Shown here: in pieces, positions 38,483 to 38,635 of the stretch
How the letters are laid out: the number at the start of each line of letters is the position of its first letter
How positions within the stretch are numbered: position 1 is the stretch's first letter
Source: an uncultured Rhodobiaceae bacterium
Lineage (GTDB): Bacteria > Pseudomonadota > Alphaproteobacteria > Rhizobiales > TMED25
Direction: 5' to 3'
Length of the DNA: 55,671 nt
Assembly (NCBI GenBank): GCA_913045225.1
Contig: CAJWPC010000007.1
Coordinates: forward strand, 1-55,671
Notes under the pieces: model-generated
What the model saw: the letters and a program-made list of their open reading frames with translations, nothing else
What the model was told of the DNA's origin: nothing
Database searches by the model: none
Made by a program: the position numbers and the translations under genes

Positions 38483-38635
38483 TTATTCTTCCTTGCATGG
38501 AGCTCCACATGGTGCACAGGCTTCTTTTGTTTGACCAGGGGAAGATATTGATAAAACGGGACTTGTAAGATGATCGTAAATAATCAGTGTAAGAGTTAGA
38601 ATAATAATGATTACATATACTTTTTTTTGATTCAT
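38483..38635 (-). CDS. Small membrane-anchored Cys-rich peptide (50 aa)
   Basis: This ATG-to-TAA frame was missed by length cut-offs. Its ATG shares a base with the stop of the YeeE-family gene (TAATG), the classic sign of coupled translation, and it ends 2 nt before the DsbA-like gene whose Shine-Dalgarno it contains. The peptide has a short basic start (MNQKKV), one strongly hydrophobic helix (about residues 6-20) and a tail with three Cys in CAPCGAPCKEE at 40-50. Topology with the Cys tail in the periplasm is expected. No family is recognised. Position between a sulfur transporter and a thiol oxidoreductase suggests a thiol or persulfide carrier, or a metal-binding accessory (inference). 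Confidence 0.75.
   Translation of the reverse strand: MNQKKVYVIIIILTLTLIIYDHLTSPVLSISSPGQTKEACAPCGAPCKEE

Follow-up and report, generated by a model that had tools for sequence, protein, structure and literature searches.

In transporters of the YeeE family, sulfur is believed to travel from one cysteine to the next, and a cytoplasmic partner, YeeD, is known. Periplasmic sulfane sulfur is carried by SoxY (of SoxYZ) on a flexible C-terminal cysteine arm, GGCGG. In the TsuA-TsuB (YeeE-YeeD) system, C293 of TsuA is described as the first residue of the relay, and C22 as lying beside YeeD, where sulfur exits on the cytoplasmic side (available sections of PMC11073785). YedE1E2, also named PmpAB, is reported to import zero-valent sulfur, whereas polysulfide was consumed no faster with two full-length YedE3 proteins (available sections of PMC10812762). 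For the presentation of sulfur to YeeE-family transporters from outside, SoxYZ and DsbA have been considered, and the same source describes Hden_0678 of Hyphomicrobium denitrificans, a 56-aa one-helix protein encoded beside SoxT1A and a DsbA-like protein (available sections of PMC11582611).

The window, i.e., the whole stretch of 55,671 nucleotides analyzed here, belongs to a genome of 1.34 Mb in 13 contigs, whose nearest named relative as judged by YeeE is a record of the OCS116 cluster (96%), with Rhodobiaceae records next. On the minus strand, a rhodanese gene, a yeeE-like gene, an ORF for a small peptide and a dsbA-like gene follow one another (Table 1). Rhodanese and yeeE are spaced by 41 nt, the yeeE stop TAA overlaps the peptide ATG in TAATG, and two nucleotides (CA) lie between the peptide stop and the ATG of the dsbA-like gene. 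This 50-aa frame with its coupling to both neighbors had been pointed out in a first-pass annotation and was confirmed. The encoded peptide, MNQKKVYVIIIILTLTLIIYDHLTSPVLSISSPGQTKEACAPCGAPCKEE, reveals no match in the profile sets of Pfam and NCBIfam. A Sel1-repeat protein is encoded 29 nt behind the dsbA-like gene, and a Sel1-repeat-like gene occurs in this position in all ten loci of the window's family with sequence there (31-100% identity); it may be part of the peptide operon.

Table 1. Genes of the locus in their order on the minus strand; positions are given in reading direction.
Feature	Position	Strand	Evidence
Rhodanese-like sulfurtransferase, hydrophobic N-terminal segment, catalytic loop CNTGHWA	40793-39777	minus	Rhodanese PF00581, 8.2e-27
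YeeE/YedE-family sulfur transporter, 366 aa	39735-38635	minus	Sulf_transp PF04143, 7.5e-48
Cys-tailed peptide ORF, 50 aa, stop TAA included	38635-38483	minus	ORF and translation
DsbA-like thioredoxin-fold protein, CGYC, N-terminal hydrophobic segment	38480-37776	minus	DSBA PF01323, 6e-21
Sel1-repeat protein, N-terminal hydrophobic segment	37746-37210	minus	

The transporter belongs to the YeeE/YedE family by its profile match and by its fold: the AlphaFold2 model (mean pLDDT 92.3) finds its best PDB match in 6leo, with TM scores of 0.70/0.77, which is the TsuA fold. C121 and C326 correspond to TsuA C91 and C293, while G52 replaces TsuA C22, such that the third cysteine, which in TsuA meets YeeD (available sections of PMC11073785), is missing. 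Both relay cysteines are present in 80 of 80 YeeE proteins compared, with or without a neighboring rhodanese, and the position of C22 is Gly (76) or Ser (4) and never Cys; the three-cysteine pattern of TsuA/SoxT thus does not occur in this set. Nor does the protein reach the NCBIfam cut-offs of the TsuA thiosulfate transporter equivalog (54.2 bits versus 400; 30.8 versus 645). The same two relay cysteines are found in YedE1E2/PmpAB of the same superfamily, which differs in being split into two short proteins and for which the available sections of PMC10812762 and PMC11582611 mention no such peptide. A link to selenium was considered and rejected, as the YedE/FdhT match of YeeE is weak (105 bits versus an NCBIfam cut-off of 350), the rhodanese reaches 12.7 bits for TsoB against a cut-off of 805, and the Tso literature, in the sections available, gives no reason for such a link.

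Among 14 genomes of the window's family, yeeE was found in 11; completeness of the remaining three ranges from 53 to 77%. A small ORF follows yeeE in all 11 genomes; it encodes CAPCGAPC in ten and is interrupted by TGA in one (L008). The same ORF also recurs behind yeeE in other lineages, which bears out the earlier view that the start/stop coupling exceeds chance. For the ten uninterrupted sequences the pooled pN/pS is 0.36, computed from uncorrected proportions over 45 pooled pairs that are, owing to the pooling, not independent. Comparison of the window peptide with its three nearest relatives yields pN/pS of 0.026/0.115, 0.110/0.625 and 0.127/0.488. Within CAPCGAPC, codon differences are synonymous throughout, and the other two forward frames of these ten sequences contain 56 and 26 stops. 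Frame and motif, whose loss in close relatives had been named beforehand as counterevidence, recur behind yeeE. That the ORF is a genuine gene under purifying selection is well supported by these sequence comparisons. In L008 (G006:C9) and L017, which stem from one MAG, TGA takes the place of a Gly codon inside CAPCGAPC; a sequence error or a broken copy is assumed, recoding being less likely.

When YeeE was used as the query, 64 of 385 genomes in the class and 99 of 398 in the phylum had a match, and loci were extracted for the best 30 of the 64 and the best 30 of the 99. Our set of 81 yeeE loci is composed of 11 family loci (L001-L011), 16 named loci (L020-L035) and 54 loci from these searches, and was selected by similarity to the window YeeE rather than at random; eight further named loci (L012-L019) were left out as copies of family loci. 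A rhodanese gene is located directly upstream of yeeE in 39 of the 81 loci, and an ORF encoding a helix plus Cys tail follows yeeE in all of these 39 (38 found by script, L110 by eye), compared to two of the 42 rhodanese-minus loci by our judgement (L078, L121). The uncorrected script counts are 38/39 versus 8/42. Inspection by eye removed six unrelated proteins in rhodanese-minus loci, repaired the frame of L001, which ran into the dsbA-like gene, and added L110, which had failed the script's hydropathy threshold. The script required a tail Cys; when it was repeated without this demand, no Cys-less one-helix ORF (35-120 aa, start within 160 nt of the yeeE stop) was found in the 81 loci and nine plasmid loci. 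In the rhodanese-bearing loci the peptide begins close to the yeeE stop, at -4 to +14 nt in 38 of 39 and at +65 nt in L027.

Among the plasmid loci the peptide occurs in all five with rhodanese (four species) and in none of the four without. The Fisher p for the linkage of peptide and rhodanese across the yeeE loci is tiny, yet it ignores relatedness. In a quick tree built from 80 YeeE rows, rhodanese and peptide change five times each; across three independent pairs they change in the same direction in 2.7 on average, and the sign test gives a median p of 0.25, the independent pairs being too few for significance. The window itself displays the full unit, i.e., a rhodanese upstream of yeeE and, behind it, a peptide with N-terminal helix and at least one tail Cys. 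Both the existence of the peptide gene, which comes third in a conserved rhodanese-yeeE-peptide unit, and its partnership with the other two are well supported by this recurrent arrangement. C79 and C218 of YeeE were considered as a required partner site, since they are found in 21 and 23 of the 39 proteins with peptide versus 1 and 1 of 41; we rejected them because they largely mark a single clade, and the CAPCGAPC members L031, L103 and L104 outside it lack both.

The catalytic Cys is present in all 39 rhodaneses, within a CNT(G/A) loop; no other column shows Cys in eight or more of them. A hydrophobic N-terminal segment is present in 37, with the exceptions of L120 and of L023 on a truncated contig, and export of the rhodanese is presumed from this segment. 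The role of the thiol oxidoreductase, which the first-pass annotation had counted among the partners, does not generalize: a gene similar to the window's dsbA-like gene (tblastn E up to 1e-3) occurs in ten of the 39 rhodanese-yeeE loci, all from the window's family, where the contig of the 11th locus ends before the position in question. It was not found in the other 28 loci, although in 12 of them the searched downstream flank measures at most 1.5 kb, and some genes could thus be missed. Since the DsbA-like neighbor was found only in the window's family, rhodanese and YeeE are the conserved partners.

The peptide family comprises 41 members, the 39 next to a rhodanese plus L078 and L121. The earlier description of one membrane helix with a CAPCGAPC tail holds as a sequence prediction, and so does, as a prediction, the periplasmic side of the tail. 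An AlphaFold2 model based on 13 aligned peptides places the helix at residues 3-24, with pLDDT blocks of 88 and 94 over residues 1-20 and of 71, 65 and 71 over residues 21-50. The helix of the window peptide ends in DHLTSP and its flexible tail in CAPCGAPCKEE; across the family an Asp at the helix end is nearly constant and the linker is variable. Lys and Arg number 79 before the helix and 27 in the 20 residues after it (41 peptides), and this excess suggests, by the positive-inside rule, that the N-terminus is inside and the Cys tail in the periplasm. The lipobox pattern is absent from all 41 peptides.

Tails fall into several types: CAPCGAPC in 25 members, the truncated L008, a single Cys in ten (reading GGCGAP, GGHCS, GGFCG), multi-PC repeats with 4 to 28 Cys in four, and L078 with three Cys. 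The three-Cys tail noted in the window thus stands for the CAPCGAPC variant and is not a family-wide feature, given the members with one tail Cys and those with up to 28. NPCAA/APCAA-like repeat tails with many Cys behind a similar helix head were seen in L076 (28 Cys), L102 (20), L077 (8), L130/L131 (6029-6403) and L132. L076 and L077, tested as repeat-tail members, belong to no Pfam or NCBIfam family, and eight tail variants compared with both sets gave a single weak match, to YniD (15.6 bits versus 40). Downstream of the peptide, L130 (6396-6983, annotated 'hypothetical protein' in S. meliloti), L077, L078 and L132 each encode a protein that contains HGHFHCFLRP or a closely similar motif.

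For the function of the peptide we propose that it is a membrane-tethered carrier of sulfane sulfur from a periplasmic rhodanese to YeeE, a proposal to which we give about an even chance. The peptide would be anchored in the inner membrane, its N-terminus on the inner side and its Cys tail reaching into the periplasm. Sulfane sulfur from thiosulfate or another donor would be loaded onto the catalytic Cys of an exported rhodanese, which would pass it on as a persulfide to a tail Cys (rhodanese-SSH to tail-SSH). The flexible tail would then deliver it to YeeE at its outer mouth, and YeeE, which retains the first two cysteines of the relay (equivalent to TsuA C293 and C91), would move it inward. 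The tail would hence extend the relay of YeeE by a 'zeroth' cysteine. The persulfide chemistry, the contact to YeeE and the direction of transfer are inferred. A persulfide carrier fits the single-Cys tails (10 of 41) better than a metal site does. Repeat tails could store or buffer sulfur. Points against the carrier are that YeeE proteins without a peptide keep the same two cysteines, so that the relay needs no peptide in general, that the linkage rests on few independent events, that L121 has a peptide without an adjacent rhodanese, that tails of 20-28 Cys resemble a sink rather than a carrier, that two full-length YedE3 proteins, unlike YedE1E2, did not accelerate polysulfide use (available sections of PMC10812762), and that a small helix beside SoxT1A lacks Cys altogether.

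As a carrier, the peptide would resemble SoxY in its flexible C-terminal Cys arm, to which the GGCGAP, GGHCS and GGFCG tails come near. It is not a member of that family: no SoxY domain was found, no SoxZ gene was seen, the window peptide matches nothing in Pfam or NCBIfam, no tail ends in GGCGG, and the peptide has a membrane helix and about 50 aa. With TsuA-TsuB the unit shares the transporter family and a small Cys-bearing partner adding one relay step; YeeD, however, is cytoplasmic, TusA-like and placed at the exit side, whereas the peptide is predicted at the entry side (available sections of PMC11073785). Neither a PF01206 match nor, in the window peptide, a CPxP motif points to TusA/YeeD. 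Hden_0678, compared by its description only, is likewise a small one-helix protein whose N-terminus is predicted to lie inside, and its gene neighbors encode a YeeE-family transporter and a DsbA-like protein; it differs in being stated to lack Cys and in its setting, beside a cytoplasmic rhodanese within a region for sulfur oxidation (available sections of PMC11582611).

The Cys-less helix beside SoxT1A implies that such small helices may function independently of Cys. In this respect it favors an alternative in which the peptide would serve YeeE as a structural or assembly subunit, or the rhodanese as a docking site, its cysteines forming a disulfide with the partner or regulating it. Strict gene order, closeness to yeeE and the nearly constant Asp next to a variable linker agree with such a role. 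Yet the tail Cys is kept in 39 of 39 rhodanese-bearing loci while the rest of the tail has changed beyond recognition, such that thiol chemistry seems to be the point, and we consider a subunit or docking function unlikely.

Somewhat poorer prospects are assigned to a metal or metalloid site (e.g., for copper, zinc, mercury or arsenic) shielding the operon's thiols or the YeeE pore. Thiophilic metals could be chelated by CxxCxxxC and by NPCAA repeats, the latter with 8-28 Cys, and in one genome an ORF that we take, by eye, to be ArsC-like lies near the unit (L063, 9643-10005). Ten of the 41 members have a single tail Cys, however, which argues against any strict need to chelate a metal or to form an internal disulfide, and the constant neighbor is a rhodanese.

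A thiol-disulfide relay of the peptide with the DsbA-like protein, keeping YeeE or the rhodanese reduced or oxidized, appears quite improbable. It draws on the dsbA-like gene that follows the window peptide after 2 nt and is present in all ten family loci with sequence there, as well as on a DsbA step considered at SoxT1A (available sections of PMC11582611), but no similar gene was found in the searched flanks of the other 28 loci, which measure at most 1.5 kb in 12 of them, and single-Cys tails cannot form an internal disulfide. Finally, a chance frame between two genes, which the shortness of the ORF and the absence of Pfam and NCBIfam matches might suggest, is refuted by conservation of the ORF in Alphaproteobacteria, Gammaproteobacteria and Hydrogenophilaceae, together with synonymous codon changes and start/stop coupling. 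A putative sulfur relay remains the best reading of the operon.

The reach of the family was also explored with a profile (A1) built from 21 peptides and run against the same class and phylum sets of 385 and 398 genomes. Besides the window it gave at least seven strong matches (E below 1e-9; G226, G316, G271, G455, G742, G515, G652), six of them directly behind rhodanese-yeeE. In the seventh, G455 (L066, 5981-6427), a C-terminal yeeE remnant and an intact peptide share one open frame. These tallies are lower bounds, as in large genomes scoring covered 17 first-look candidates. Weak matches (E 2e-4 to 0.01; 15 of 19 genomes in one scan, 6 of 11 in the other) were taken as chance, and three of their neighborhoods (L070-L072) contain no yeeE match. 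As A1 misses diverged tails, the additional search with YeeE was made. Peptide-based searches confirmed none of 31 pattern matches in viral contigs and nothing in plasmids; the plasmid members were found through YeeE and rhodanese.

The nine plasmid loci were hand-picked from 95 records with a YeeE match. Rhodanese and peptide occur together in Sinorhizobium meliloti (two strains), Ciceribacter, Palleronia and Marivivens, whereas the loci of Paraburkholderia, Caballeronia, Halomonas and Azospirillum have neither a peptide nor a rhodanese match in the sequenced stretch examined. The S. meliloti ORF (L130, 6029-6403) overlaps the yeeE stop with its start and is not listed among the genes of the PLSDB table, itself incomplete. 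The main text of a Ribo-seq study of S. meliloti (PMC10117765) mentions neither YeeE nor rhodanese. Open-licence PMC papers yielded no relevant paper on CAPCGAPC, NPCAANPC or similar motifs and none on YeeE with a small cysteine-rich membrane protein, and neither they nor Pfam or NCBIfam hold a description of the wider family. The peptide had initially been called overlooked, which is true of its description but not entirely of its annotation, as the Palleronia and Marivivens plasmid records list it as 'hypothetical protein'.

Within the window's family, TusA is present in 13 of 14 genomes, SoxB in none over the cut-off (two have weaker matches), and the PF01077 sulfite reductase in none, seven of the 14 being of high quality. 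A general tie between the peptide and a missing sulfite reductase was rejected, as PF01077 is present in 14 of 19 other peptide-bearing genomes. For the family itself, the lack of PF01077 in its 14 genomes implies that import of reduced sulfur may matter.

Occurring with every adjacent rhodanese-yeeE pair examined, the Cys-tailed peptide is a concrete candidate for presenting sulfur to YeeE from outside, and as its gene is located on pSymB of the tractable S. meliloti 1021, the question is directly testable. Tentatively, and with doubts that outweigh our confidence, we suggest that these peptides may form a new class, in which a tiny tethered helix with a disordered Cys tail would add a periplasmic 'zeroth' Cys, loaded by an exported rhodanese, to the transporter's relay. 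The class would have been expanded in rhizobia and others to a Cys-repeat sulfur store, and to bacteria such as the OCS116 cluster, where searches found no sulfite reductase, it would offer a reduced-sulfur route.
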